Origin: ANME-2 cluster archaeon
Lineage (GTDB): Archaea; Halobacteriota; Methanosarcinia; Methanosarcinales; Methanocomedenaceae
Direction: 5' to 3'
Assembly: GCA_019429385.1 (NCBI GenBank)
Contig: JAHYIS010000024.1
Span: 1 to 42,282, forward strand
DNA length: 42,282 nt
Of the stretch, positions 1 through 20,571 are shown in pieces. The notes below the pieces were generated by a model. It was not told the DNA's origin. It saw only the letters and a list, made by a program, of their open reading frames with translations, and ran no database searches. The stretch's first letter is position 1. Each line of letters opens with the position of its first letter. The translations under genes and the position numbers were made by a program.

Positions 1-3000
1 GTGATGTAGTACCCCAGGCACCGGCATTCAGACTATGTTCGGGAACACTTGCATTGAATGTAGGATTCACCATTATGCCGGTACTGTTGAACGCTGACCC
101 TGCCTGGTGGCAGTAACTGCAATTCACACCACCCGACCAGGTACGAAGGTCTGTTCTCTTCCTGCCATAGTGGGCGATAAGGTAACTATCATTGGTCCGG
201 TCGGCCGGGTCTGCAGCCGCAGGACCGATATCAAGGAGTTTCATCTCGGTAAGATTGTGGCATACTACACAGGACGACATGTTATTCGTGCCATTACCTG
301 CTTTGAGTTCGCTGCCGCCGTAAAAGTGTTCAACTACTGCAGGAATTACACCAGCACCTGATAGGTTGGTTGGTTTATTGGTACCAACATGGCATTCCTC
401 ACAGGTGTAAGGTTCAACCCCATTAAAGTCACCCAGACGGTCAGCATGTGACGTTGCCGTTGCAGGATAGGTACCGTTATTGATGTGGCATGCCCAGCAG
501 ATCTTGTTGGTGTCACTTATGGCATACGGGTTGGTGATAGTTGATAGATTCTGGATATTCTGGTGAATTGATAGTGAATCATTCATTACCGTGAAATTGA
601 CCTTGGGTGCAGTACCGCCAATATCATGGCATGATATACAATCAGCCCCGAATCCACCCACTGCCACTCTATGCACGAAATCTTTCGTAGTAGGAGTTGA
701 TATCGTGAGCAATAGAGCACCGTGACAGGGCTGGCATGTACTGTCATTGACATTGCTCCCCATGAACGAGTGATTGTACCATACCTGGCCGGAATTATCC
801 CATGCAGTGCCATTGAGCGTATTGTTCAGTACAATGGTCGGTGGAACCGGGGTCCACTGGGTACCGTTATAGTAGGGTGCAGAATTGACATGACACCCTC
901 GGCACCAGGTGTTGGTGCTGGTGATGCTGGTGTTCAATGCCTGGCCGTTGCGGATACTCTCGATAAGACCCGTGGCAGGGTCGCTGTGCCTGGTATCGTT
1001 GTGACAGTATTCGCAGGCTTCGTTGGTGGTGTTCCAGTAAACAGTGCTATTCCACCGGCTGCCGTTATTGAGGTTATCGCTGTGAGCGAACATGCCGCCG
1101 GTATTTGCAACGAGCGGTCGGGTGGGAGTGAAGTTGGAAAGGGTGGCGTTGTTGCTATGACAGCGGACACAGTCAATTGCAGTAACGTTGGATGTGCTGA
1201 AGGTATCGTCCTGCTGGAGATAGTTCATAGGATGAATTTCAGTGGAATTATAGGTGTGACAGGCAGTACAGTTTACAGCCTGGTTATGGCGCGTCTTGTT
1301 TGTAGTAACCATGTTACCGCTGTAAGTCTTTGATATCCCATGACATGCCAGGCAAAGAGTATCGTTTATTATTGGCTTCTTGAGAGGTTCATCATGGAAC
1401 TGGTATCCCGTGCTATTGTGGCATTCGCTCGCATTACAACCCGGGTTCGTGCTATTGTATCTCAGGCTGTGGTTATTTATCGAAGTATTCGAAGGGTCTG
1501 TAAATACACCGCTGAATTCAACGGTGGCGTTTTTATGGCAGTAGGAACAATAATCAGCACTTCCCGGTGTTTTGCCGAATGCTGATCTGTTCTTGCCATA
1601 ATGGTAGAAACTCAGGTTCCCACCTGTGAAGCGCTCTCCATCACCGATAAAACTGCCGGTGTCGGTATCGTTATTGTAAAGTACCATGCTGGAAACATTC
1701 TCATGGCAGTCGATACATGAAGCCTGGGCGCTGGTCGTATTCCAGAGTGCAGAGATATTCCCTCCGTTGAAATGGTTTGAAACGGGTTTTGCAGGTTGCG
1801 GGTCTCCATTGAAAGTAACCCCATATTTGGCTCCCCCGGCAACATGGCAGTCCACGCACATAAAAGGATTCGCAAATCGGTCACCCATTCCGCCGGTTAC
1901 ATTACCAGCAGAATCATGACATGCCCAGCAGGCCCCATTATCTGAGAAGTAGCCCTGTGACGAAGCATTCAAGGAATTCATGCCCGCATGCACACTGCTG
2001 TTGAAAGTGGTTGTATTGATATGATGGGTCACGTTTGTGCTTGACATCTGATGGCATTTGATACAATCAGGGTCACCTCCCCGGGTCACATTGGCTGAAT
2101 GGAAATCCAGCGGTTGAGCTCCCCCGGCATGGCAGTCCCAGCATTCCTCTTTAGTGACCGTTGCATTTACATGTTGAGGAACACCGGTAACAAGAGCAGT
2201 TACATTGGACGGTGCACCCCACCAGGTCGATTCGACCAGGGTGCCAATGCTCGTATTAGCACCAAGATGACAGATCCTGCAATCACTGGTATTGGGCATA
2301 TGGTCTATGGTCTGCGTGAACCGGTAGGGACTCATATTTGAGTCAGGCAATCCGAAGTTATAAAAAGCATAATACCCGCCTGCAGAACCGTTCTTCTCCC
2401 GGCCTACACCATGGCATGAACCATTGCCTGTATTATTATCAAAACTAAAACATGTTGAGGGTGTTATCTGGGTGGTGGTGGAATAGGCAGCACTTTGATT
2501 GGGTACCTGTATCAAGGTCAATGGTCTATTGATATGGTTGACCACTCCGGGCATTGTTTCGTTAATATCGCTTCTCAGCTGGATCTTATCACTGAATGGC
2601 CCGGAAGGACTCGAATAATGACACTCTTCACAGATATTGGTATTATTATCTGATATAAATGTCATTGGTTCTACGTCTTCTTTATGGCAGGCATAGCACC
2701 CTTCATTATCCTGCCGCTGCTGGCCCGCCTGGACCTCATAATCAATACCGTCACCCTCCCAGTCAAAACCAAAGGTATGGATGTCAGCGGCCTTGGATAG
2801 GTTTTCCCTATGGAATGTTGTATCATTGCCATGACAGTTGCTGCAAAATCCTGCTGTCTTATTCACTGGATGCCGTATCTGGTCTGAAACGTTCCACTGG
2901 ACACCAACACTTGTATTCTTATGACAAAGGCTGCAATCAACAACCGTGGAGATAAGAGTAGAAGTGTTGGCGTAATGAGACACATTTGATAAGAGGGTAA

Positions 3001-3514
3001 CATTAGATGCATTATTGTCATTTAATATCCTGGGGGTCAGGCTTTGATTATGGCAATAGCTGCAATTATCAAAAGTATCGATATCTGTAGATAGATTTAT
3101 ATTCTGAATATGTTCCAGTACAATGGGAATAGATGGGCCACTGATGTTACTGCCGGGGAGTGTCCCGTTTATATGACAATCCCCCTCATTGCAATTCAGA
3201 GGATTCGTGTAATTGGCAGGATTGGTGGCATTCACTGCAGCATCTGAGTGAGTTCCGATAGGAGCAGTTCCGTTCCCATGACATGCCCAACATACCCGGT
3301 TCAATGGGTCTATTGATGCATTATAAGGTGTACCATTGTTCAAATCAGCATGCACACTGGCATTTATTGCTGAAATATTGACATCAAGATAGGGGGCTGT
3401 ATTATTATGACAGCTAAGACAATCTCCGTTCGATGCATCTAATACAGGCAAAAGGGCCAATAAAAATAAAATTAAAAAAGTAGCTCTAACTGCATTTGTC
3501 TCTGCCCATTGCAT
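1..3514 (-). CDS. Giant secreted multiheme c-type cytochrome (C-terminus outside window)
   Basis: One reading frame of 1171 codons is open from the ATG to the left edge, with no stop, so the protein is longer than what is seen here. It starts with a signal peptide (hydrophobic core TFLILFLLALLPVL, residues 12-25), and the first heme motif, CLSCH, follows at residue 32. I count 25 CXXCH motifs, two CX4CH motifs (CNEGDCH, CNASECH) and one CX11CH motif: up to 28 covalently bound hemes so far. N-x-S/T sequons are very frequent, as expected for a glycosylated archaeal cell-surface protein. An AGGTG ribosome site lies about 9 bases before the start. The family carries electrons across or along the cell envelope; the partner is not identifiable here. 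The plus-strand ORFs in this stretch are shadows of this gene. Function as an extracellular electron conduit is inference. Confidence 0.95.
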   Translation of the reverse strand, partial: MQWAETNAVRATFLILFLLALLPVLDASNGDCLSCHNNTAPYLDVNISAINASVHADLNNGTPYNASIDPLNRVCWACHGNGTAPIGTHSDAAVNATNPANYTNPLNCNEGDCHINGTLPGSNISGPSIPIVLEHIQNINLSTDIDTFDNCSYCHNQSLTPRILNDNNASNVTLLSNVSHYANTSTLISTVVDCSLCHKNTSVGVQWNVSDQIRHPVNKTAGFCSNCHGNDTTFHRENLSKAADIHTFGFDWEGDGIDYEVQAGQQRQDNEGCYACHKEDVEPMTFISDNNTNICEECHYSSPSGPFSDKIQLRSDINETMPGVVNHINRPLTLIQVPNQSAAYSTTTQITPSTCFSFDNNTGNGSCHGVGREKNGSAGGYYAFYNFGLPDSNMSPYRFTQTIDHMPNTSDCRICHLGANTSIGTLVESTWWGAPSNVTALVTGVPQHVNATVTKEECWDCHAGGAQPLDFHSANVTRGGDPDCIKCHQMSSTNVTHHINTTTFNSSVHAGMNSLNASSQGYFSDNGACWACHDSAGNVTGGMGDRFANPFMCVDCHVAGGAKYGVTFNGDPQPAKPVSNHFNGGNISALWNTTSAQASCIDCHENVSSMVLYNNDTDTGSFIGDGERFTGGNLSFYHYGKNRSAFGKTPGSADYCSYCHKNATVEFSGVFTDPSNTSINNHSLRYNSTNPGCNASECHNSTGYQFHDEPLKKPIINDTLCLACHGISKTYSGNMVTTNKTRHNQAVNCTACHTYNSTEIHPMNYLQQDDTFSTSNVTAIDCVRCHSNNATLSNFTPTRPLVANTGGMFAHSDNLNNGSRWNSTVYWNTTNEACEYCHNDTRHSDPATGLIESIRNGQALNTSITSTNTWCRGCHVNSAPYYNGTQWTPVPPTIVLNNTLNGTAWDNSGQVWYNHSFMGSNVNDSTCQPCHGALLLTISTPTTKDFVHRVAVGGFGADCISCHDIGGTAPKVNFTVMNDSLSIHQNIQNLSTITNPYAISDTNKICWACHINNGTYPATATSHADRLGDFNGVEPYTCEECHVGTNKPTNLSGAGVIPAVVEHFYGGSELKAGNGTNNMSSCVVCHNLTEMKLLDIGPAAADPADRTNDSYLIAHYGRKRTDLRTWSGGVNCSYCHQAGSAFNSTGIMVNPTFNASVPEHSLNAGAWGTTS

Positions 3515-3545
3515 TCTATACACCTATCGGCAACACACTGTATGG

Positions 3546-3755: not shown

Positions 3756-4370
3756 TCAACCTTTGAGATATACTGGTGTCAATCTCCTCTCAAGGAATGA
3801 AAATGACACATCAATGAATAATGCGAGCACTATAGCAGGAAGGGCTCCAGCCAAGATCTTATCCGTGTTAAAAGCTATCAGACCTTCAAATACCAGTTCT
3901 CCCAGTCCACCGCTACCAATAATTGCGGTCAGTATAGCGATACTATTGGCCAGGATAGCTGCAAATTTTATACCTGCGAACATTGCAGGGTATGCATTTG
4001 GTATTCTAATGTGACGGTTGATCTGCCAGTCAGTTAATCCAATACCTTTAGCATATTCTATTAATAATGGATCAATATTGGTTAGGCCTATATAGGAATT
4101 TTTAATAATGGGGAGCAAAGCCCTTAGCATAATGGCTATTATAGCCGGGGTGAAACCTATTCCAATAAGTGGAACCACAATTGCAACAACAGCAAAACTC
4201 GGTACTGCCTGGGCCAGGTTTGCAAATTTTATTACGATAGAAGCCAGCCTGGTACTATACAATGAGGCAAATGCCAGTGGAATAGCTATGACGATACTTA
4301 TGAAAAGAGCTGAATATGTGAGAACAATATGCTCAACAGTAGCATCTGCAATAGTGGAAAATATTACCAT
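3756..4370 (-). CDS. Osmoprotectant ABC transporter permease (OpuCB/ProW-like), second subunit
   Basis: A 204-residue integral membrane protein of the binding-protein-dependent transport permease family, with about five to six hydrophobic segments. It has the conserved EAA-type cytoplasmic loop (around residues 104-125, Y-A-K-G-I-G-L) that docks on the ATPase. It is the last gene of a four-gene operon (binding protein, ATPase, permease, permease) and overlaps the upstream permease gene by 7 bases, which suggests translational coupling. The two short permeases would form a heterodimer, as in OpuC-type quaternary ammonium importers. The substrate (glycine betaine, choline or carnitine) is inferred from the family only. 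Confidence 0.88.
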   Translation of the reverse strand: MVIFSTIADATVEHIVLTYSALFISIVIAIPLAFASLYSTRLASIVIKFANLAQAVPSFAVVAIVVPLIGIGFTPAIIAIMLRALLPIIKNSYIGLTNIDPLLIEYAKGIGLTDWQINRHIRIPNAYPAMFAGIKFAAILANSIAILTAIIGSGGLGELVFEGLIAFNTDKILAGALPAIVLALFIDVSFSFLERRLTPVYLKG

Positions 4371-5008
4371 GAACCATACCTCACCTTGAGTCTGTTTTCA
4401 ATAACACCAGCAATTGCATCCAGAATAACTGCAAGCATTCCGGTCCATAATCCTGCAACCAGAATGGTATCCACATCATACAGGTAAATACCCGTCTGCA
4501 ATGCCGTTCCAAGGCCACCTGCTGCAATTAGGCCACCCAGGGTGATCAAGCCCATAGTAAATACCAGTGCTATCCTGAAACCACCAGCAATGAGTGGAAG
4601 TGCCATTGGCATCCTTACCTTGACCAATATCTCTTTTGATGACAGTCCTATTGCCTGTGCGATGTAAATATACTCTTTGTTGACACTTTTCAGACCCACA
4701 TAGGTATTCCTGGTGATAGGCAGGATAGAATACAGGATCGATGCAACAATAGTAGGTTTTGCCCCTAAACCAAAGAAGGGAAGCAATAGAACCAGAAGTG
4801 CAATATCAGGTAGGGTTTCGATAATATTGAGGATATTCAATATCGGATTGGCAATTCTTGGATGCAGAAATACAATGATCCCCACACTGATACCAATGAC
4901 TGTGGCTGAAAAAAGGGCAATACTGAACATATACAAATGCTCCATTGTACGCATGGTTAACAATTGTGAATCCCATACATCCATTATCTGTACAATGAAT
5001 TGTTCCAT
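4364..5008 (-). CDS. Osmoprotectant ABC transporter permease (OpuCB/ProW-like), first subunit
   Basis: A 214-residue membrane protein paralogous to the permease downstream. It has about six transmembrane segments and an EAA-type loop (A-Q-A-I-G-L-S-S-K-E, about residue 117). The segment ETLPDIALLVLLLPFFGLG matches the start of the transport permease core in this family. The gene follows the ATPase by 30 bases, and its last codons overlap the next permease. It would form the translocation pore with that second permease. Confidence 0.88.
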   Translation of the reverse strand: MEQFIVQIMDVWDSQLLTMRTMEHLYMFSIALFSATVIGISVGIIVFLHPRIANPILNILNIIETLPDIALLVLLLPFFGLGAKPTIVASILYSILPITRNTYVGLKSVNKEYIYIAQAIGLSSKEILVKVRMPMALPLIAGGFRIALVFTMGLITLGGLIAAGGLGTALQTGIYLYDVDTILVAGLWTGMLAVILDAIAGVIENRLKVRYGSW

Positions 5009-5038
5009 AAATCCAACCTTGCCTATTGATACTATTTA

Positions 5039-6166
5039 TCAAATGAGTTTCAGGAGCACTTTGTCTAAAAAGAAAATTCCACATGGACGGCCTGCTTCTA
5101 TCACAATTCCTAATGATTCGGCTTGGTCTTTTAATTTCCCCAATGCTGATGCAATATGATCATTTGGTGAAAAAACAGGGATAGCTCTTGCAATATCCCG
5201 AAGTGCTACATTATCGTATGTTTGTTGAAGCAGGTCCACCATTGCAACATATCCTATTGGATCAGAGCTATCAAGTACGATAGCTAGTTCCACATTGGTT
5301 TTTGCCATCCTATTAACAGCTTGCTGTGCGGTCATTCCGGCATCAAATAGATATTTCTCAGTTATAGGAGACATCATATCCTTTACCTTGAGGGTATCCA
5401 TGTGTTTGAATTTCCTTTTTGCATCAACAATATCAGAAACCAGTTCATTTTCAGGGTTCAGGATCAATTCTTCAGGAGTACCTATCTGGATGAGTTTAGC
5501 ATCAGACATAATACCGATTCTATCCCCCAGTTTGAATGCTTCATCAATGTCATGGGTAATAAACAATATTGTCCTGCCTATTTCCTGTTTTATTACATTG
5601 AACTCATCCTGCAACTGCTTTCTCAATATTGGGTCAAGTGCTCCAAACGGTTCATCCATCAACAATAAGGGCGGGTCCATGGCAAGTGCCCTGGCAAGTC
5701 CGACCCGCTGCTGCTGCCCACCGCTCAACTGACTGGGATACCTGTCCATAAATGATTCGGGGGGAAGTGATACAAAATCAAGGAGATGTTTTACCCTGTC
5801 TGAGATATCCTGGTCGGACCACCCCTCCAGACGGGGGACCAGCCCTATATTCTCCTTGATGGTCATATGGGGAAAAAGACCGATATCCTGGATGACATAA
5901 CCGATGTTCCTTCGCAACCTGACAGGGTCAAATTCCATTATGTCATGGTCGTTTATCGTTATGACTCCCTCATCCGGTTCAATAAGCCGGTTTATCATCC
6001 TGAGGGTGGTGGTCTTTCCAGAACCACTGGGACCTATCAGTATCAACAGTTCACCGCCCTGTATATCAAGGTCCAATTGTTCAACAGCAAAGTGTTCGTC
6101 GTATTTTTTCGTGACCTGCTGAAGATGAACTGAGTCGATCCTGTCAAATAGTCTTTGAGTAGGCAT
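5039..6166 (-). CDS. Osmoprotectant ABC transporter ATPase with CBS domains (OpuCA/ProV-like)
   Basis: A 375-residue ATPase. Walker A GPSGSGKTT is near residue 45, the signature [15 protein letters not shown] near 147, and Walker B LLLMDEPFGALDP follows. After the nucleotide-binding domain comes a tandem CBS module (about 265-370, starting DMMSPI). In this family the CBS module senses ionic strength or cyclic dinucleotides and gates transport. Homodimers energise the two permeases encoded downstream. Gene order (binding protein, ATPase, two permeases) supports one quaternary ammonium importer. Confidence 0.93.
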   Translation of the reverse strand: MPTQRLFDRIDSVHLQQVTKKYDEHFAVEQLDLDIQGGELLILIGPSGSGKTTTLRMINRLIEPDEGVITINDHDIMEFDPVRLRRNIGYVIQDIGLFPHMTIKENIGLVPRLEGWSDQDISDRVKHLLDFVSLPPESFMDRYPSQLSGGQQQRVGLARALAMDPPLLLMDEPFGALDPILRKQLQDEFNVIKQEIGRTILFITHDIDEAFKLGDRIGIMSDAKLIQIGTPEELILNPENELVSDIVDAKRKFKHMDTLKVKDMMSPITEKYLFDAGMTAQQAVNRMAKTNVELAIVLDSSDPIGYVAMVDLLQQTYDNVALRDIARAIPVFSPNDHIASALGKLKDQAESLGIVIEAGRPCGIFFLDKVLLKLI

Positions 6167-6217
6167 GGCTATCTATGAATCTCGTCATGTTTTATAAATA
6201 AATCAAAAAGGGTTGAA

Positions 6218-7114
6218 TTACTCTTCAGCAATTAACCCCTGCTGTACGAGAAAATCCCTGGCAATATCCCGTGCTTCTTTTTTGTCCACATCATATTGAT
6301 AATTAAGTTCCCTCATTGAATCAGTATCAATTCTGCCGTCCAGTTCCTTGATGATATCAACAACATCCGGATTTTCAGATGCGAACTTCTCTGTAACAAT
6401 AACTATGGCATCATAGGGTGGCAAAGCGTTCTTATCATCTTCCAGTATCCTGAGATTGAACAATTCGTTCCTGGTATCGGTCGTATATGCTGACACTGCC
6501 TCTACATCACCCTGTTTGATAGCTTCGTACATGATAGTGGCCAGTCCCTGCCGGTAATTTTTGAATTTAAAACCATATACTTCTTCTATGCGAGGAAGAC
6601 CATCTTCCCTTTGTGCAAATTCAGGGTCAGTCCCAATTACCATTTCCGGTGCAAATACTTCAAGCTCACTGATTCTGGACACGTTATTTGCCTGCGCCCA
6701 ATCTTTCTTGACCGCTATAGCGTAAGCATCCTCAAAACCCAGGTTGTTGACAATAAGCACGCCATCCTGTTCAAGCAAACCTTTTTCTGCTTCTTCATAT
6801 ACTAGCTGGGGGTCCCATACCTCAAGTGGTGGTTTATTCAATATCTGGCTGTATGCTGTTCCGGTATATTCCACATACGTGTTGACCTGACCTTGTTTCA
6901 GGGCTTCATAATTGACGAAGGTACCACCTAACCCTTCTTTTACATCTGTTTCATATCCATGCTCTTCCAGCAGGAGGGATATCATATGTGCAAGGATATA
7001 TGATTCCTGAAATTGTTTGGACCCGATGACAATGGTATTGTCATCTGATTGTGTGCATCCACTTGTCAGTACTGCAATTACTATAATAAAAGCGATTAAG
7101 ATATTCAATTTCAT
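6218..7114 (-). CDS. Osmoprotectant-binding lipoprotein (OpuCC/OpuAC-type)
   Basis: A 298-residue substrate-binding protein. The N-terminus is a lipoprotein signal with lipobox LTSGC (Cys20), so the protein is anchored on the outer face of the membrane. The mature part opens with IVIGSKQFQESYILAHM, typical of the glycine betaine/choline-binding group, and the conserved YVEYTGTA segment follows. A GGGG ribosome site sits 8-9 bases before the ATG. This is the first gene of the minus-strand operon, and its promoter must lie in the gap shared with the proline dehydrogenase gene. The ligand cannot be fixed from sequence alone. Confidence 0.9.
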   Translation of the reverse strand: MKLNILIAFIIVIAVLTSGCTQSDDNTIVIGSKQFQESYILAHMISLLLEEHGYETDVKEGLGGTFVNYEALKQGQVNTYVEYTGTAYSQILNKPPLEVWDPQLVYEEAEKGLLEQDGVLIVNNLGFEDAYAIAVKKDWAQANNVSRISELEVFAPEMVIGTDPEFAQREDGLPRIEEVYGFKFKNYRQGLATIMYEAIKQGDVEAVSAYTTDTRNELFNLRILEDDKNALPPYDAIVIVTEKFASENPDVVDIIKELDGRIDTDSMRELNYQYDVDKKEARDIARDFLVQQGLIAEE

Positions 7115-8173: not shown

Positions 8174-10414
8174 TTACACCTTCACCCCTTCCGCAAACAC
8201 ATTGAACAGGTTCCCCATCTTCTCATACTGCGCCGTTTCCACATGCGAATACCTTATAGGCTTTTTCTGCTCCCGTGTCTCTTTCTTGAGCATATTGTAG
8301 AGCGCCTTGGACCGCTCCACCAGCCGCTCATCAGTAGTCCCTTCAACCAGCATCACACCTCCAGCTCCACTCTCAAAAGCAAAGTTCACGATATCCGCAT
8401 CCAGTATATGGATGGATGGCACCTGCACAAAAAGTATCTTTGAGGAATACTGATTGCGGTTCACCCCTGCCAGGTCAGCAGCTGCATAGGCCGCAGGGTC
8501 GATGAACACAATTACACCCGGGCCTGCCTCCAGCATTCCTTTAACCTGCGCCTTGAGCTGCTCGCGCGTGTAGTTCTGGATATCAATAGCCTGCTGCGGG
8601 CACACGGCAGCGCACACACCGCAACCCGTACATGCCAGCGGTTCAAGTTTCGGTCTGCCCGGTCCGGACAACGCATCATAGGGACACTCCTCGATACATA
8701 TACCGCACTCGTCACACCGGTCATTGATGACGGGTTTTTCCGGAGATATGGCAATCCTGCCCTTCCCCAGGAACTGGTGTGTCTTATGAGCGGCACTGAT
8801 ACCATCGGTCACCGAATCATGGATGTCCTTGGGACCTATTGAGCAACCAGCCATGTACACTGCCTGGTTCAGGGAACTGACAGGGTCTATCTTTACATGC
8901 TTCTCCTCGATAAAACCATCATCACCTATCGGGACATTCAACTGCCGGGCCAGTTCCTGCGACCCTTCGGCAGCCTCCAGCGAAGGGCACAGCACGACCA
9001 TATCGAACACATCTTCCTCCTTGGAGTTGAGCAGGGTATCTTCATATCTCACCTTCAGGTCACCGTTCTTCGTTGGTGTTATTTCCGCTATCCTGCCCCT
9101 GATGAACTGTACACCCTCCTTCTGGGTATTATAATAGAACTCTTCAAAACGGCGCCCTGCAGCCCGCATATCAATGTAGAATATCGTCACCTCAGCATCC
9201 TTGTTCATCTTCTTAACCAGGTGCGCCTGCTTCATCGAATACAGGCAGCATACCCTGCTGCAATGCTTGTTATATTTCTCGAAATCCCGGCTGCCCACGC
9301 ACAATACGAACGCTACCCGTTTTGGCATCGTTCCGTCTGCTTTCTGGAGTCGCATGCCGGTATGGCTCTTTGCTGAAAGCATATCCTCGAACTCCACTGC
9401 AGTAATAATATCCGGATGGTCGGTAGTATATTCCTCGATACGCGATACGTCAAAAATCTTAAAACCAGTAGCAATCACCACCGAACCCACTTTTATGTCT
9501 TCAGTCCGGACCTCATCCTCAAGCCTGATGGCATCCACAGGACAGATCTTTGCGCATGCTCCACAGTCAATACACTTTTCCTTGTCAATAATATACACCT
9601 GGGGTATGGCCTGGGCAAATGGCAGGTAAATGGCGTCAACCGGACATTTTGCAGCACACCTGCCACATGAAGTACATGTTTCCACATCCACGTACCTGGG
9701 AGAATGTTTTAATGCAACCGTGTAGTCACCCACATTTCCCTGTACACCATCCACTTCCGTGTTTGTGAACATAGTAATATTGGGATGGTTGTACACTGCC
9801 ACCATCTTTGGTGTCAGGGTACACTGGGAACAATCATAGGTGGGAAAGGTCTTGGACAATCCTATCATATGACCACCGATATAAGGTTCCTTCTCCACCA
9901 GCACGACCTCATGGTCATCTGCCAGCTCCAGCGCTGTTGTTATCCCTGCAATACCGCCGCCTACCACCAATACCCTGTCTACAAGGTCTTTTTCTATGGG
10001 TGCAAGTTCTGACAATGCCGCCATTCTGGCCACTGCTCCTGTGATCAGGGACTTTGCCTTGCTCGTAGCTTGTTCGGGTTCATCAGGATGTACCCATGAA
10101 TCCTGCTCCCGAAGATTCGTTATTTCCAGCATCATGGGATTGATACCTGCTTTCCCTGCCATTTTCCGGAATGTTTCCAGGTGAAGTTTTGGAGAACAGG
10201 AACCTATGACCACTTTATCCACGTTACCACCCCTGATATCCTGTTCAATGGATCCCTGTCCGGCTGAGCTGCACAGATAATCCTGAATGGTTACCGATGC
10301 CACATTGTCCTTTCCTTTCATTGCCCCGGCCACGTCATCAATATCGACAACATCCGAGATATTGCCACCACACCTGCACAGGTACACGCCTATCTTGCTG
10401 CTGCTCATTTTCAC
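8174..10414 (-). CDS. hdrA: Heterodisulfide reductase subunit A with C-terminal MvhD-like domain
   Basis: 746 residues. HdrA is the FAD-containing, electron-bifurcating core of soluble heterodisulfide reductase. Visible in order: N-terminal cysteine cluster region (Cys13, 15, 48, 73); FAD Rossmann motif VVGGGIAG (150-157); the HdrA signature YDCSQCTLTPKM (193-204); two inserted [4Fe-4S] motifs (CTSCGRCAAKCP from 247, CIDCGACAKICP from 281); two more near the C-terminus (CDECGICIEECP, CTGCGVCAAVCP, about 567-606). The last 113 residues resemble MvhD/FlpD (AADLAGVNRNQY is recognisable), but the domain contains no cysteine, so it cannot hold the usual [2Fe-2S] cluster. It is the third gene of hdrC-hdrB-hdrA, starting one base after hdrB stops. 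CoB-S-S-CoM as substrate is family knowledge. Confidence 0.95.
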   Translation of the reverse strand: MKMSSSKIGVYLCRCGGNISDVVDIDDVAGAMKGKDNVASVTIQDYLCSSAGQGSIEQDIRGGNVDKVVIGSCSPKLHLETFRKMAGKAGINPMMLEITNLREQDSWVHPDEPEQATSKAKSLITGAVARMAALSELAPIEKDLVDRVLVVGGGIAGITTALELADDHEVVLVEKEPYIGGHMIGLSKTFPTYDCSQCTLTPKMVAVYNHPNITMFTNTEVDGVQGNVGDYTVALKHSPRYVDVETCTSCGRCAAKCPVDAIYLPFAQAIPQVYIIDKEKCIDCGACAKICPVDAIRLEDEVRTEDIKVGSVVIATGFKIFDVSRIEEYTTDHPDIITAVEFEDMLSAKSHTGMRLQKADGTMPKRVAFVLCVGSRDFEKYNKHCSRVCCLYSMKQAHLVKKMNKDAEVTIFYIDMRAAGRRFEEFYYNTQKEGVQFIRGRIAEITPTKNGDLKVRYEDTLLNSKEEDVFDMVVLCPSLEAAEGSQELARQLNVPIGDDGFIEEKHVKIDPVSSLNQAVYMAGCSIGPKDIHDSVTDGISAAHKTHQFLGKGRIAISPEKPVINDRCDECGICIEECPYDALSGPGRPKLEPLACTGCGVCAAVCPQQAIDIQNYTREQLKAQVKGMLEAGPGVIVFIDPAAYAAADLAGVNRNQYSSKILFVQVPSIHILDADIVNFAFESGAGGVMLVEGTTDERLVERSKALYNMLKKETREQKKPIRYSHVETAQYEKMGNLFNVFAEGVKV

Positions 10415-10415
10415 C

Positions 10416-11300
10416 TTACCCCCTTAACCGGTCAATGAACTGTGCATCTGTTATGAAATTCAGGTCCACACCCACCTCTTCAGGTGAATGCCCCATAGCA
10501 ATAGCCAGCAACTGGGAATAATGCAGCACCGGGATATTGTATTCATGCCCGAACTTATCTTTTATCTCTACCTGCCCAAAGTCCAGCTGCAGGTGACAGA
10601 ATGGACATGCATTGACGATACAGTCTACTCCTGCCTCGGCAATATGCTGCAATTTTGCTTCTGCCATCTCCAGTGACGTATCCAGTAATGCAGAACGTAC
10701 GCCGCCTCCTGCACCGCAGCACGCCATCTTATCCTCATAATCAATACTCTGTGCGCCAAGCGCTTCCACAAGTTCATCAAAGAACACCGGGTTCTCCACG
10801 GTCCCCAGGTCCCGCTCTTTGGAAGGTTTGATGAGATGGCAGCCATAATGCAATGCTACCTTCAGGTCAAGCTGATGCTTAATGGTTTCTTTTATCGTCC
10901 CGGGTCCGATTTCCTTGGACAGGAACTCGATGATATGACGGACCTCAACTGAGCCGTTGTACTTCATATCCACTTCTGCGAGATGCTTATTGACCTGCCT
11001 GGCCAGACCCTGGTCATGCTTGAGTTCATGGTTGGCATCAGTCAGGGAACCGAAACAACCGTTACATATAGTCAGTACATCCCGGTTCATTTGTTCAGAT
11101 AACACGATATTCCGGGCTGCAAGGGTCAACCATGTGACCTTATCAAATGACCTGAACACACCCGGGGCAGGGCAGCATGACGCACCGGCCAGGTCAGTCC
11201 AGTCGATACCCAGTCCGTCCAATACCAGCTTTGTAGCTTTTTCAATGCCAGGATAACGGTTGGGAATAATACATCCCAGGAACAGCGATACAGGTTTCAT
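10416..11300 (-). CDS. hdrB: Heterodisulfide reductase subunit B
   Basis: 294 residues. HdrB carries the noncubane [4Fe-4S] clusters that reduce the CoM-S-S-CoB heterodisulfide. The two CCG-domain halves show their cysteines: ASCCPAPG, CNGCFGSL and YGCHLIKP in the first part, then MACCGAGGG and NACPFCHLQL. Length is normal for the family. The start overlaps the hdrC stop by 4 bases, so the subunits are probably translated together. Confidence 0.96.
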   Translation of the reverse strand: MKPVSLFLGCIIPNRYPGIEKATKLVLDGLGIDWTDLAGASCCPAPGVFRSFDKVTWLTLAARNIVLSEQMNRDVLTICNGCFGSLTDANHELKHDQGLARQVNKHLAEVDMKYNGSVEVRHIIEFLSKEIGPGTIKETIKHQLDLKVALHYGCHLIKPSKERDLGTVENPVFFDELVEALGAQSIDYEDKMACCGAGGGVRSALLDTSLEMAEAKLQHIAEAGVDCIVNACPFCHLQLDFGQVEIKDKFGHEYNIPVLHYSQLLAIAMGHSPEEVGVDLNFITDAQFIDRLRG

Positions 11301-11806
11301 TGCCCTCCCTCCTTTTCTTTTCCTTCCGTATCCTTGACCAGTTGGACAAAACCAGTAGCTATTAGCAGTTTTTTCACCTGGTCAAGAGCATCCGGGTACT
11401 TGTGGACCGTTTCAGGGAGCTCGTCCATCCCCAGTTTCTTTCGTTTGTCCCGGTTAGTATCATTTATAGGTACTGCATGGCCCTTTTCTATAACCAGCCC
11501 TGCCACTTTGCGATGATCAGGAAGCATGAGTCCCATATGAACCGATTCCGTCCTCAGGGCCAGAATCCCATCAACGATATTTATTCCTCTTGGACACCGT
11601 TCCTGACACTGGTAACAGGTCGTACACATCCACAGGTCTTTATCGTGATACACATCCTTATTCCGCCTTGCAGACAGTACTATACGTCTGGTATTCAGGC
11701 TGGTGTACCGTCCGGAAGGGCAACTTCCGGTACATGTCCCGCACTGCATGCAGGTTAAAAATGTCAATCCTTCATCATCAAGCAGTTTTACCGGTTCCTT
11801 TGTCAT
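11297..11806 (-). CDS. hdrC: Heterodisulfide reductase subunit C
   Basis: 169 residues with two [4Fe-4S] motifs, CMQCGTCTGSCP and CTTCYQCQERCP, which relay electrons from HdrA to HdrB. I chose the internal ATG (protein begins MTKEPVKLL) over an ATG 51 bases further upstream, because a GGAGTGG ribosome site stands 3-9 bases before it and the upstream extension has no family resemblance. First gene of the hdrCBA operon. A TTTATACTT element lies about 20 bases ahead of the ATG and others lie further up; the real promoter is uncertain. Confidence 0.93.
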   Translation of the reverse strand: MTKEPVKLLDDEGLTFLTCMQCGTCTGSCPSGRYTSLNTRRIVLSARRNKDVYHDKDLWMCTTCYQCQERCPRGINIVDGILALRTESVHMGLMLPDHRKVAGLVIEKGHAVPINDTNRDKRKKLGMDELPETVHKYPDALDQVKKLLIATGFVQLVKDTEGKEKEGGQ

Positions 11807-11962
11807 TGTTCCACTCCAATTGATAAGTATAAAATGTTCAATATTTCCTGATCTCACTATAACATATCGTTAAACAACATTGATTTCAGTGATTATTATA
11901 AGTATTGATTTTATCGATCACATTTTGCACTGTTTTGTACAAACCTTCCAAAATATATACTA

Positions 11963-14287: not shown

Positions 14288-15490
14288 CTATTTGACCTCA
14301 TCGTAACCGATCTCATCTTTGGTAAGATAACATGCCGGGTCATCAGCCCATACATTATCATAGATGGCCTCTGCCCGGACCCTGAAGTTGCCATTGCATA
14401 TCTCCAGCCATTTACATTTGGCACATCTATCTGCATTTGCCTTTATCAGATTTTTACGGTCCTTGAGACCGGCCATGAGCTTATCACTGGTATCCATCCA
14501 TATCTCACTGAAAGGCCTTTCCTTTACATTACCAAAAGAATAATGCCTCCAGAACTGGTCAGCGTGTACAGAACCGTCCCATGATACGCAGCCGATACCG
14601 ATACCGGATGAATTACCCTGGTTCATCATAAGCAGTTCATAGACTTCGGCAGCGCGCTCCGGGTCTTCTTCCAGCAACCGGAAATAAACATAAGGCCCGT
14701 CACAGTGGTTGTCCACGGTAAGTACTTCCATAGGGAAACCTTTGTCATGCATCTCCTTTGTCTTATCCATGATAAGGTCCACTACACGGCGGCTCTCTTC
14801 ATGGCTCAGGTCTTCTTCCACCATTTTTGAACCGCGTCCTGCATAGACCAGATGGTAGAAACAGACCCTTGGAATACCTTCCTCATACAACAGGTCGAAG
14901 ATGGCAGGTATGTCCTGAGCGTTTTTCTTGTTAATGGTAAATCTAAGACCGACCTTGATACCTTCCGCCTTACAGTTGCGCATACCCTGCAATGCTGCAT
15001 CAAAAGCACCAGGCATACCCCTGAACTTATCATTGGTCTCCCTCATACCGTCCAGTGATACACCTACATACGATAGTCCGATGTCCTTCAAGACCCTGGC
15101 CATCTTCTCATCGATCAATGTACCATTCGTGGAGATAACGGCACGCATTCCCTTATCCCTTGCATACATGGCGAGTTCAGGAAGGTCTTTTCGCATGGTG
15201 GGTTCACCACCTGAGAACAGTATCACCGGCGCACCGAACTGGGCAAGGTCGTCTATCAGTTCCTTGCCCTGCTGGGTGGTCAGTTCATCTTTATATTCAA
15301 TATCCCTTGACTGGGCATAGCAGTGCACGCAATGCAGATTGCAGCGACGTCCCATATTCCAGACCACTACAGGTTTTTTATCCTTTGAGAACTGCAACAA
15401 GTGAGATGGAAGTTTGCCTGATTCCCGCCCGTACCTCAGGGCATCGGATGGTTCAACGGTCCCGCAGTAAAGTTTTGAAATGCCTATCAT
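14288..15490 (-). CDS. ahbC: AhbC-type radical SAM enzyme, 12,18-didecarboxysiroheme deacetylase
   Basis: 400 residues. AhbC removes the two acetate side chains of 12,18-didecarboxysiroheme to give Fe-coproporphyrin III in the siroheme-based heme pathway. The radical SAM cluster motif is CNLHCVHC (Cys50, 54, 57), followed by FSGGEPTMR. The C-terminal SPASM-like extension has further cysteines (CVSWDGS, CAKCKWLEIC). The N-terminus MIGISKLYCG and the location downstream of hemL-hemC-cobA-hemD favour AhbC over the related AhbD or NirJ. It is the last gene of the cluster, 21 bases after the small CC-motif protein. Confidence 0.88.
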   Translation of the reverse strand: MIGISKLYCGTVEPSDALRYGRESGKLPSHLLQFSKDKKPVVVWNMGRRCNLHCVHCYAQSRDIEYKDELTTQQGKELIDDLAQFGAPVILFSGGEPTMRKDLPELAMYARDKGMRAVISTNGTLIDEKMARVLKDIGLSYVGVSLDGMRETNDKFRGMPGAFDAALQGMRNCKAEGIKVGLRFTINKKNAQDIPAIFDLLYEEGIPRVCFYHLVYAGRGSKMVEEDLSHEESRRVVDLIMDKTKEMHDKGFPMEVLTVDNHCDGPYVYFRLLEEDPERAAEVYELLMMNQGNSSGIGIGCVSWDGSVHADQFWRHYSFGNVKERPFSEIWMDTSDKLMAGLKDRKNLIKANADRCAKCKWLEICNGNFRVRAEAIYDNVWADDPACYLTKDEIGYDEVK

Positions 15491-15511
15491 CTTTATTACA
15501 CCATTCGTTAT

Positions 15512-15796
15512 TTAATCAATATTGTAATTCATGTTCACCAAAAGCATCTGCCTCTCTTCATCAAGCGTGATCTCGATGGAAGATGCATTGGAATCCAGGT
15601 ATTTTTCCACATGGAAGGTGACACCTTTCTCGATATACTTAACATCCCTGGCAATTTCCTTTTCCACGGTTGCAATGCCAAGTTGCTGGCAGCAGCCGCC
15701 GCCAGTTATGGATAAGCGTACAGCAGGTGATTGTTCCTTCTCCAGTTCAGCCCTTATGAACTCAATGGCCTTATCATCTACAATGAGTTTAGTCAT
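15512..15796 (-). CDS. Small HesB/IscA-like protein with a Cys-Cys motif
   Basis: 94 residues. The central GGGCCQQLG motif and the flanking beta-strand pattern resemble the CC/Se-motif branch of the HesB/IscA family. The C-terminal CxC of true IscA is absent: the only cysteines are the adjacent pair. It lies between hemD and ahbC in the same orientation. A role in iron or Fe-S supply to the radical SAM enzyme, or in metal handling for heme, is inference from position. Confidence 0.7.
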   Translation of the reverse strand: MTKLIVDDKAIEFIRAELEKEQSPAVRLSITGGGCCQQLGIATVEKEIARDVKYIEKGVTFHVEKYLDSNASSIEITLDEERQMLLVNMNYNID

Positions 15797-15889
15797 ATTG
15801 AATACCGAATTCTTTTTTCATAGTACATAAAGTATAACTTTTTTAGTTCAACTTTGTTGGACACCCTGGACAAACTCCAAAGTCTCACG

Positions 15890-16735
15890 TTAACCCGGCA
15901 CAAAGAAGAATTTTCTTGTTTCCTCTATCAATGCTTTGAATGTATATTCATTTGAAATAATAGTAACTGGAATTTTATATATATTTAATGTATTGGAAGT
16001 TGGATGTCCGATGGCAGCCACAACGATACCCTCATCATTCAATTTCCTGATAACCTCATCCTTAAACCCTATCTGTGATGCCATCCCAAGGAAATTCCGG
16101 ACCATCATTGAACTGGTAAATACCACAGCATCAACCGTTTTATCCAGAATTGCCTGTATCAGTGCTTCCTGTGCACTCCCCCTTACAGGGCTGGTAATCT
16201 CATAGACCTGTGTTTCAAAAACATCGGCACCGGCAGCCTTTAAACCTTCCACCAGTACAGGTGCACCATGGGAACTCCTGGCAATGTCAACCACTTTCCC
16301 GTACACATTATTTCTGATGGCTTCAACCAACCCTTCCGAACTGTACGACTCTGGCATGAACGATATCAAAATCCCCTGCTCCAGAGCTGCTTCCCTGGTC
16401 TTGGGACCGATAGCAATAGTGGTAAGTCGGTTCAATGCAGCGATAAAAGCATCCCGGTCAGGCACCTTATCCAGCGTATGGTCTATGCCGTTTGCACTGG
16501 TAAAAATTACAATATCCGACTGTCCGGCCAGTATCCGGGACACAAACCCGTTAAAATACTCATCCCTCTTATCCAGTATCGCTATCATGGGAGCAGATAT
16601 AACATCAAATCCGGCCTGCTGGCATACCTGGATGGAATCCTGTTCGTAGCGGACGGGCCGCATTATGGCAACCGTAGGTCTGGTGTCGATGTTGATGTGA
16701 GTGCTGGCATCGGAACTGAAAGAGGTACTGGCCAT
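15890..16735 (-). CDS. hemD: Uroporphyrinogen-III synthase
   Basis: 281 residues. HemD closes hydroxymethylbilane into uroporphyrinogen III with inversion of ring D. The two-domain pattern is visible: TVAIMRPVRYEQDSIQ at the start, VIFTSANGIDHTLD, TIAIGPKTREAAL, and in the second half VVFTSSMMVRNFLG and VVAAIGHPTSNTL. I chose the ATG; a TTG four codons earlier, right after the cobA stop, is also possible. It follows cobA directly in the heme cluster. Confidence 0.9.
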   Translation of the reverse strand: MASTSFSSDASTHINIDTRPTVAIMRPVRYEQDSIQVCQQAGFDVISAPMIAILDKRDEYFNGFVSRILAGQSDIVIFTSANGIDHTLDKVPDRDAFIAALNRLTTIAIGPKTREAALEQGILISFMPESYSSEGLVEAIRNNVYGKVVDIARSSHGAPVLVEGLKAAGADVFETQVYEITSPVRGSAQEALIQAILDKTVDAVVFTSSMMVRNFLGMASQIGFKDEVIRKLNDEGIVVAAIGHPTSNTLNIYKIPVTIISNEYTFKALIEETRKFFFVPG

Positions 16736-16749
16736 AATTCCCAACAAAA

Positions 16750-17505
16750 CTACCTGAGTTCACCCAGTTCATCATGCAGGGTGACCACGCCACCTATTAT
16801 GGTAATGGCCGGAGCCTTGACGCCTCTTTCCTCTGCCAGTTTGACAATGTTTTCCAGCGTACCTACTGTGGTCCTCTGGTCGGGCCGGGTTCCCCGCTCG
16901 ATAAGTGCCACCGGGGTTGCAGGGTCTTTGCCATACTTCATCAGTTCATTCACGTTTCTGGGCAGCATGCTGACTCCCATCAGGATGACTATGGTTCCGC
17001 TGAACTTTGCCAGTGCGTCCCAGTCAAGGGCCGAATCTTCCTTTGTGGGGTCTTCATGCCCTGTGATAAATGTCACCATACTGGCATGGTCCCTGTGGGT
17101 AACAGGTATGCCTGCATAGGCCGGTGCCGCAATTGCAGATGTGATGCCGGGCACGATTTCAACTTCTATGCCATCTCGTACCAGCACCTGCGCTTCCTCG
17201 CCGCCACGTCCGAATACATAGGGGTCGCCGCCTTTCAACCTGACCACCATCTTTCCCTCTTTAGCTTTATCCACCAGTACCTGGTTGATCTGCTCCTGTT
17301 TGAGAGTGTGGCTGCCTGCATATTTGCCGGCATCTATCTTTTCCGCGTTTTTTGGCATGCTGGCCAGGATCTGCTCTCCGGGAAGCTGGTCATATACTAT
17401 GACCTCGGCCTCGTCTATGAGCCTGCGTGCTTTTAGCGTGAGCAGTTCCGGGTCACCCGGACCGCTGCCTACAAGGTATACCTTACCCAGTTTTTTGCTG
17501 TTCAT
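16750..17505 (-). CDS. cobA: Uroporphyrinogen-III C-methyltransferase (SUMT)
   Basis: 251 residues. The enzyme methylates uroporphyrinogen III at C2 and C7 to precorrin-2, the branch point to siroheme, heme and cobalamin in archaea. Motifs: VGSGPGDPELLTLKA at the N-terminus, RLKGGDPYVFGRGGEEA, and VPGITSAIAAPAYAGIPVTH, all conserved in the SUMT family. It is a single-domain enzyme, not the CysG fusion. It sits between hemC and hemD, consistent with the order of reactions. Confidence 0.95.
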   Translation of the reverse strand: MNSKKLGKVYLVGSGPGDPELLTLKARRLIDEAEVIVYDQLPGEQILASMPKNAEKIDAGKYAGSHTLKQEQINQVLVDKAKEGKMVVRLKGGDPYVFGRGGEEAQVLVRDGIEVEIVPGITSAIAAPAYAGIPVTHRDHASMVTFITGHEDPTKEDSALDWDALAKFSGTIVILMGVSMLPRNVNELMKYGKDPATPVALIERGTRPDQRTTVGTLENIVKLAEERGVKAPAITIIGGVVTLHDELGELR

Positions 17506-17541
17506 ATGTTAGTCTCCGATGTATGCACTCATGAATTGAAC

Positions 17542-18468
17542 TCAATTGAATTTCCGACCATTTGATAACATTTCTACCGCCTCACTGACCAGTTCGGCGC
17601 CTCCCTGCTCAACAATTTGATGACCCAACCGTTTTGCTTCTTCCTCACACCTATCAAGAGGCACAACCTCGTCCACTTTGACAAACCTGTCGCCTTCCAG
17701 TGACAGCACCTCAGCCCGTATCCTCATACCACTGCCCACCCTGGTAGCAAAAGCGGCAATAGGCACCAGACAGCCCCCCCCAAGGATTCCAATTACAATA
17801 CGCTCAAGCCGGGTCTCAAGATTCGTGGGAGGATGGTCCAGCAGCGATACGGCTTTGTGGCCTTCAGTATCCTTTGGCGTCACCACCACAATGGTCCCCT
17901 GGTTGGCGGACGGGCAGAAATTATCAGGGTCAAGCTGCACCACGTCCAGTTCCCAGCCCATACGCTGCAGTCCGGCCTCTGCCAGCAGGATACCATCATA
18001 CTGACCTTCCTCAAGTTTTCGGCGGCGGGTATTGATATTACCCCGCAGGTCCTGAATATTCAGGTCGGGCCTGTATCTAAGAAGCTGGGCGCGCCTGCGC
18101 ATACTTGTGGTGCCGATGATAGCCCCTTCAGGCAGTTCATCCAGCGTGGAACCGTCGTTCGTCAGCAACACATCCAGGGGCGAATCACGTTCCAGTACGG
18201 CAGCGATGGCCAGTTTATCAGGTCGCTCCGTGGGGATGTCCTTCATGCTGTGGACCGCGATATCGATCTCGCCTTCCAGCATCCTGTCATCCAGTTCGCG
18301 CACGAATGCACCCACTCCCGGCACCTCGTGCAGGGGGCGGTCAGTGAAGGCATCACCGCTTGTCTTTATGATCTTGCGCCTGGTATCAAATCCGCGCTCC
18401 TTTAGCATAGCAGCTACCTTGTCTGCCTGCGCCAGGGCCAGGGCACTTCCCCGTGTACCGATTATCAT
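17542..18468 (-). CDS. hemC: Porphobilinogen deaminase (hydroxymethylbilane synthase)
   Basis: 308 residues. HemC joins four porphobilinogens into hydroxymethylbilane using a covalent dipyrromethane cofactor. Motifs: IIGTRGSALALAQ at the N-terminus, AVHSMKDIPTE, TTSMRRRAQLL, and the cofactor-attachment loop GGGCLVPIAAFA. The ATG comes 3 bases after the hemL stop, so the two genes are probably coupled. Confidence 0.96.
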   Translation of the reverse strand: MIIGTRGSALALAQADKVAAMLKERGFDTRRKIIKTSGDAFTDRPLHEVPGVGAFVRELDDRMLEGEIDIAVHSMKDIPTERPDKLAIAAVLERDSPLDVLLTNDGSTLDELPEGAIIGTTSMRRRAQLLRYRPDLNIQDLRGNINTRRRKLEEGQYDGILLAEAGLQRMGWELDVVQLDPDNFCPSANQGTIVVVTPKDTEGHKAVSLLDHPPTNLETRLERIVIGILGGGCLVPIAAFATRVGSGMRIRAEVLSLEGDRFVKVDEVVPLDRCEEEAKRLGHQIVEQGGAELVSEAVEMLSNGRKFN

Positions 18469-18471
18469 TGC

Positions 18472-19740
18472 TCAGGGCCTCAGGTTCTCTTCATATGCCT
18501 TGAGGGTGGCATCAATATCTTCATCAGTATGTGCAGCGGACAGGAAATTGGTCTCGAACTGCGACGGTGGCAGGAACACGCCGCTATCGAGCATCCTGTG
18601 GAAGAAATTAAAGTAACCTTCCTTATCACAGTTCAAAGCTTCCTGGTAATTGGCAGGCATCTCGCCAAAGAACACCTTGAACATAGAACCTACACCGCTG
18701 ACATTGTAGTCCAGTCCCAGGTCGTTCACGGTATCCCGCAACATGGCGCGCAGGCCGTCTGATTTCTGGTTCACCTTTTCGTGTACCTTCTCTTTTTCAA
18801 GCACGTCAAGAGTGGCAAGTGAAGCTGCCAGTGACAATGGGTGTCCGTTAAAGGTCCCTGCCTGATACACTTTACCGGCAGGTGATATGTGTTGCATAAT
18901 ATCACGGCGACCGCCTATCACACCAATCGGAAGACCACCTCCCACTATCTTGCCCAGTGTGGTCAGGTCGGGTGAAACATTGTAATATTCCTGTGCACCT
19001 CCCATGGCAAGCCTGAACCCCGTTATCACTTCATCAAAGATGAGCAGGACATCATTCTCTTTCGTTACTTTCCTTACCTGTTCCAGATAACCTTCTTCAG
19101 GAAGGATCGGGCCGATATTACCCATGACAGGTTCCATGATGAGGGCTGCCACCTCGCCATTATATCCATCTATGGCTTCAACAATGGCATCAATATCATT
19201 GTATGGGACCTGCAGGGTATGCTTCGTGAAGTCCCTGGGAACACCCAGAGAATCCGGTGCACCCTGCGTGGTCGCACCGCTCCCTGCCTTTACCAGGACC
19301 GCATCATGGGCTCCATGGAACCCGCCCTCTATCTTGATGATCTTGTTCTTGCCCGTATAACCCCTGGCTGCCCGGATAGCTCCCATAGTGGCCTCAGTAC
19401 CGGTCGACACGAACCTGACCATATCGATACTGAAATAATTGTCACAGATACGTTCTGCAAGTTTCACTTCCATTTCGGTAGGCGTCCCGTAGAGCCAGCC
19501 CTGGTCCAACTGGGCACGGATGGCTTCCTTGATAGCCGGATGGTTGTGTCCCAGCATAAGTGGCCCGTATCCCAGACAATAATCGATGTACGTATTACCG
19601 TCAACATCAGTGAGTTTTGAGCCGTCGGCACTTTTTGTGTAGAACGGGTACGGGTTTATTGCCCTTACCGGGCTGCTTACTCCGCCGGGGAGCAGGTCCT
19701 TTGCTTTGCTGAACAATTGTTTCGATTTTTCGCGCTTCAT
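18472..19740 (-). CDS. hemL: Glutamate-1-semialdehyde 2,1-aminomutase
   Basis: 422 residues. HemL isomerises glutamate-1-semialdehyde to 5-aminolevulinate with PLP. Landmarks: [12 protein letters not shown] near the N-terminus, [26 protein letters not shown] and the PLP-lysine region [14 protein letters not shown] use the internal ATG ([10 protein letters not shown]), since the ten residues upstream are not family-like. It is the first gene of the heme cluster; hemA and hemB are not in the window. Confidence 0.95.
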
Positions 19741-19820
19741 ATGAAATACCACAGGAATGTAGATAACCAAATATTTTTTCTATTGATTCTTTTACAGAAC
19801 TATGCTCCTAAAATGATAGT

Positions 19821-20463: not shown

Positions 20464-20571
20464 GTTCAGTTCACCAACGTTAATATTCATTGGAACCGAA
20501 TTATATACTATTGTATTGTGGGCAATATAGGAATTATTGCATTATGGCTATTATTGCGGGGTTGGTAACTA

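Follow-up and report, generated by a model that had tools for sequence, protein, structure and literature searches.

The foremost candidates for electron export from methane-oxidising archaea are S-layer cytochromes, and a model in which they serve as conduits at the S-layer has been published for ANME cytochromes (PMC9012536). The class ANME MHC-A, as described by Chadwick et al. (2022; PMC9012536), combines a signal peptide, many CXXCH motifs, an S-layer domain with one linker heme, and a C-terminal helix; a further helix with a heme-bearing C-terminal extension is an elaboration found in ANME-2a and ANME-2b and does not belong to the class definition. The largest cytochrome published for the ANME-2a MAG KA2 from the Karabetova Gora mud volcano possesses 67 CXXCH motifs (PMC8470020), and S-layer cytochromes with 86 hemes in ANME-2c (PMC9012536) and 113 hemes in Methanoperedens (PMC7082337) have been reported. 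The ANME-2a MAG B4-03, which together with its relatives represents a genus-level lineage adjoining Methanocomedens, was described to encode the S-layer multiheme cytochrome MCL7415845, comprising 1,647 amino acids and 32 hemes (PMC10052568).

The stretch of DNA analyzed here (the window; 42,282 nucleotides) represents the entire contig C24 of a 2.40-Mb genome consisting of 70 contigs (100% complete), whose McrA is 96% identical to that of B4-03 and 88% identical to that of ANME-2b HR1. The frame at its left edge is proposed to be the 5' third of a single gene encoding a multiheme cytochrome c of very large size, fused to an S-layer domain and belonging to the ANME MHC-A class, in an ANME-2a archaeon, with a role as electron conduit at the S-layer. 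A probability of about 0.85 was assigned to this reading. The features located within the window are summarized in Table 1.

Table 1. Features of the window (positions refer to the 42,282-nucleotide stretch).
Feature	Position	Strand	Remarks
Repeat that broke the assembly	1..154	-	Same sequence at C18:43906-44059; in C38 it continues to the 127-base overlap with C18
5' part of the giant multiheme cytochrome gene	2..3514	-	1171 codons; runs off the left edge
First copy of the 478-residue, 12-heme module	20..1453	-	Residues 691-1168 of the joined protein
CX4CH heme motif CNASECH	1418..1438	-	Homologues have CXXCH or CX4CH at the identical column
CX4CH heme motif CNEGDCH	3173..3193	-	
Probable ATG start codon with hydrophobic N-terminal export signal	3429..3514	-	Hydropathy only
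Glycine-betaine-type ABC transporter genes (permeases, ATPase with CBS, OpuAC)	3756..7114	-	Same order beside the B4-08 orthologue
HdrA-FlpD, HdrB and HdrC genes	8174..11857	-	Same order in B4-08

The Frame at the Window Edge

The initial annotation of the window had reported an unbroken frame of 1171 codons, still open at the left edge, with 25 CXXCH motifs and three unusual ones behind a signal peptide. Both the codon count and the coordinates were reproduced exactly, since the stop-to-stop frame starts at position 3523, has an ATG at position 3514 and runs down to base 2 of the minus strand with no stop codon. The motif count was likewise accurate, with 25 CXXCH, two CX4CH and one CX11CH (CFSFDNNTGNGSCH), compared to a mean of 0.13 CXXCH motifs (maximum three) in 2000 residue shuffles of the same frame. 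The N-terminal hydrophobic stretch ATFLILFLLALLPVLDA is compatible with the proposed signal peptide, as judged by hydropathy, and the first CXXCH motif is located at residue 35. Pfam matches within the window part comprised MtrC/MtrF-like, Cytochrome_C7 and c3 domains; matches to the NCBIfam decaheme and NrfH-like models were all far below the cut-off, and phmmer found no solved structure matching the window part.

Reconstruction of the Complete Gene

A stop codon or frameshift right beyond the window was looked for and found to be absent. Contig C38 is redundant with C24, sharing 20.5 kb at 99.98% identity, and lengthens the frame by 106 bases. The 127 bases at the start of C38 are identical to the 127 bases at the end of contig C18, and the frame crosses this overlap unshifted; an overlap of this length is expected of adjoining edges in an assembly graph with k presumably set to 127. 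The frame then continues through C18:45358-38840 to a stop codon approximately 6.5 kb further on, by which an artefactual frame ending just outside the window is ruled out. The joined gene is closed and encodes 3,341 residues with 69 CXXCH and five CX4CH motifs (~363 kDa without heme), the window contributing roughly the front third of the protein and the other contig the remainder.

The assembly broke at the window edge because of a 233-base exact repeat at the junction, which lies between two tandem modules of 478 residues. Apart from the start of C38/C24, the junction sequence was found at the end of C18 and in the second module on C18 but nowhere else, with the next-best match in the genome being 74% identical. 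Moreover, the B4-03 contig carrying the orthologous gene starts just past the same repeat, so that two assemblies were broken at one place. The join is supported by the orthologue of MAG B4-08 (L030, JAMJFV010000024.1), which is located on one unbroken contig, is closed at both ends and has the same upstream genes. This protein shares the domains, signal peptide and gene neighbours of the giant cytochrome, but comprises 2,859 amino acids and 58 CXXCH motifs, having one 478-residue module fewer. Identity between the two amounts to 86–90% over the second module and beyond (most of the C-terminal ~2170 residues), 72% over the last 141 residues and 70–82% over the N-terminal 485 residues.

The published B4-03 protein MCL7415845 is likewise an orthologue, being 89% identical in the S-layer region. 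The corresponding frame (L113) agrees with it in length and heme count and is open at the 5' edge of its contig, which identifies the catalogued protein as a truncated piece of a longer one.

Both the join and the module copy number were deduced from contig overlaps and comparison with relatives, and in a mixture of strains the two parts of the gene could derive from different strains. That C24 and C38 represent two copies of the gene is not favoured in view of the 20.5 kb shared at 99.98% identity, with divergence setting in where C38 enters a transposase-like frame. The departure of C38 (20651-21811; L010 920-1285) from the window at about position 20545 is located between queH and nrdJ. By eye, the C38 frame beyond this point reads as an IS-type transposase, and an insertion polymorphism between strains is a possible cause of the departure.

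Domain Architecture and Class Assignment

The S-layer, Ig-like and transmembrane domains, which the initial annotation had suggested searching for, were all detected in the C18 part. The signal peptide is followed by 69 heme sites (64 CXXCH and five CX4CH), an S-layer domain with one linker heme, four heme sites and then a membrane helix flanked on either side by an Ig-like domain; thus, 69 of the 74 CXXCH/CX4CH sites are located N-terminal to the S-layer domain. The latter matched Pfam PF07752 (DUF1608) with 59 bits (cut-off 30), and its linker heme motif CYACH at residue 2786 is invariant in 21 homologues. A profile of the protein tail matched the S-layer protein MA0829 of M. acetivorans (3u2g) with an E-value of 2.1e-9. 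In the structural model of the B4-08 tail, the S-layer part is confident and the top Foldseek match is again 3u2g, with low TM-scores owing to the poor quality of the model elsewhere. The membrane helix (~3209-3230, hydropathy about 2.0) is the sole helix besides the signal peptide and is also present in the B4-08 orthologue model. The Ig-like domain after the helix (~3231-3341) has counterparts in close relatives, and the more distant L116 features a different tail; a membrane-spanning helix would place this domain in the cytoplasm. Furthermore, the joined protein contains 185 N-glycosylation sequons (5.5 per 100 residues), which agrees with a surface glycoprotein.

With 69 CXXCH motifs in the joined gene, 25 of them in the window, the protein is a multiheme cytochrome c, for which covalent heme attachment is predicted. 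In a tree of the S-layer region, it formed the sister to the MHC-A-like proteins of its family (support 100/99), and the MHC-B-like clade was separate from it. This grouping, the S-layer domain, the single and invariant linker heme motif and the C-terminal helix agree in indicating a giant archaeal cytochrome of the ANME S-layer type, as anticipated for the window fragment, and of the MHC-A class. Compared to most MHC-A members of the family, which have about 1,170–1,390 amino acids and 27–30 CXXCH motifs, the protein is considerably larger, and it differs from the ANME-2a/2b MHC-A proteins in lacking the second helix and the heme-bearing C-terminal extension, and in carrying the second Ig-like domain past the helix instead. 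ANME MHC-B was ruled out, since the position of the first CXXCH motif leaves no room for a heme-free peptidase M6-like N-terminus, for which no Pfam match was obtained, and since the tree separates the two. ANME MHC-C was ruled out by the presence of the S-layer domain and the absence of any pectin-lyase-like match at the N-terminus. An additional MHC-A-like protein of normal size (about 1,341 amino acids) is encoded in two relatives of the same genus, so the giant cytochrome is probably a paralogue of the normal-sized MHC-A; no such protein was seen in the window's own genome.

Regarding size, it had been suggested that the protein could rank among the largest archaeal cytochromes. Its 69 CXXCH motifs are indeed the highest number in its own genome (compared to the published 67), but a record is ruled out by the 86- and 113-heme S-layer cytochromes mentioned above. 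The giant cytochrome therefore belongs to a known class as one of its very large members, and the complete architecture of the largest S-layer cytochrome in an ANME-2a genome is now available; what is modestly new is that modules were duplicated and that published records are fragmentary. The same genome also encodes a protein with 67 CXXCH motifs (C5 614-20407) and heme modules related to those of the giant. In contrast to the latter, it comprises 6,598 amino acids, starts with a long heme-free part and ends in CSTCH, and a search with the tail of the giant gene gave no S-layer match in it. Its heme-free N-terminal part features repeat-like beta domains.

The 12-Heme Module and Its Duplication

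Judged from its sequence, the giant cytochrome is an N-terminally enlarged ANME MHC-A whose growth appears to stem from the 478-residue, 12-heme module having been duplicated in tandem. The second copy, located on C18, shares 77% amino acid identity with the first, whereas older copies share 30–44%. Over 276 bases, the duplicated modules are identical at the DNA level, indicating that the duplication is young or was recently homogenised. When 26 modules from several families were compared, almost every heme motif proved invariant, as did a number of additional histidines. The site at the module start is CX4CH in 15 and CXXCH in nine of the 24 readable modules, and this exchange suggests that the CX4CH sites probably bind heme. 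An AlphaFold model of the module was unusable (pLDDT 43).

Modules of the same kind were also found in the 113-heme S-layer cytochrome of Ca. Methanoperedens manganireducens (PMC7082337; L038), which has an S-layer domain and tandem duplications of its own, but comprises 5,615 amino acids and 113 CXXCH motifs, its modules being 39–40% identical to those of the giant. Between modules of one protein, identity amounts to 42–88% (L038), 83% (L039), 62% (L040) and 61% (L041), whereas these modules share only 37–43% with that of the window, which points to separate duplications in several lineages. Module duplication may be a simple way for the length of the outer heme chain to change between close relatives. 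A broader proposal, which we consider tentative and slightly less than evenly probable, is that tandem duplication of the 12-heme module repeatedly lengthens the extracellular arm of ANME S-layer cytochromes, with independent events in the ANME-2a genus of the mud volcanoes and in several lineages of Methanoperedens, and that short-read assemblies tend to break at these duplications, leaving the published numbers of hemes too low.

Proposed Role and Alternative Explanations

The conduit role is proposed by homology, following the published model. According to this proposal, the protein would be exported and loaded with heme by the Ccm system, the C-terminal helix would hold it in the cell membrane, and the S-layer domain would mark the point of passage through the S-layer, with the linker heme in the plane of the layer. 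The N-terminal heme chain, and thereby 69 of the 74 heme sites, would be located outside the cell. Electrons from reverse methanogenesis could then pass via the four membrane-side hemes to the linker heme and the outer chain, and from there to a partner cell, to a mineral or to further cytochromes; a duplicated 12-heme module would make the outer chain longer.

The number of modules in the cell may differ from the assembled one: if the repeat was collapsed or mixed between strains, the 69 CXXCH motifs would be an artefact, with 58, 80 or more in reality. The exact repeat at the junction and the presence of C24 and C38 as variant contigs of one region are in line with this explanation, and removal of one module would result in 2,863 amino acids and 58 CXXCH motifs, a size all but equal to that of the B4-08 orthologue. 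However, C18 carries the second module, the repeat and the C-terminal part in one uninterrupted stretch, so that the repeat must precede the second module, and C38 is the only other contig ending in it. Moreover, the B4-08 module is 86.2% identical to the second module, in keeping with the identity over the rest of the gene, and only 76.4% identical to that of the window. A wrong module number is thus considered unlikely, although more copies than assembled could exist.

Cytochrome filaments are known from other microbes, and the giant cytochrome might form filaments rather than act as single anchored copies. The strong preponderance of heme sites N-terminal to the S-layer domain would be compatible with filaments, as would the redox conduction measured in ANME-2a consortia (PMC12372872). 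A fixed position in the envelope is nevertheless indicated by the S-layer domain with its linker heme and by the C-terminal helix, and no solved structure with sequence similarity to the window part was found, making filaments quite improbable. Even less probable is that the extra heme sites are largely functionless, reflecting a recent strain-level expansion under weak selection: the partial DNA identity of the modules fits a recent origin, but the invariance of nearly all heme motifs and of several histidines among modules of several families and the separate duplications in several lineages argue against it. The anchored S-layer conduit of the MHC-A class is the preferred reading.

Genomic Context

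In total, nine Ccm-type (PF01578) genes were identified in the genome, two of which (C22 38018 and C43 11506) are situated near other giant cytochrome genes. Further giant cytochrome frames, all cut at contig ends, are located at C43 12201-17594 (47 CXXCH), C35 3-5999 (41), C19 2-4015 (25) and C18 2-3646 (19). Within the window, about 11 kb from the cytochrome gene, a heme biosynthesis cluster (14288-19770) encodes AhbC, HemD, an SUMT-like methylase, HemC and HemL.
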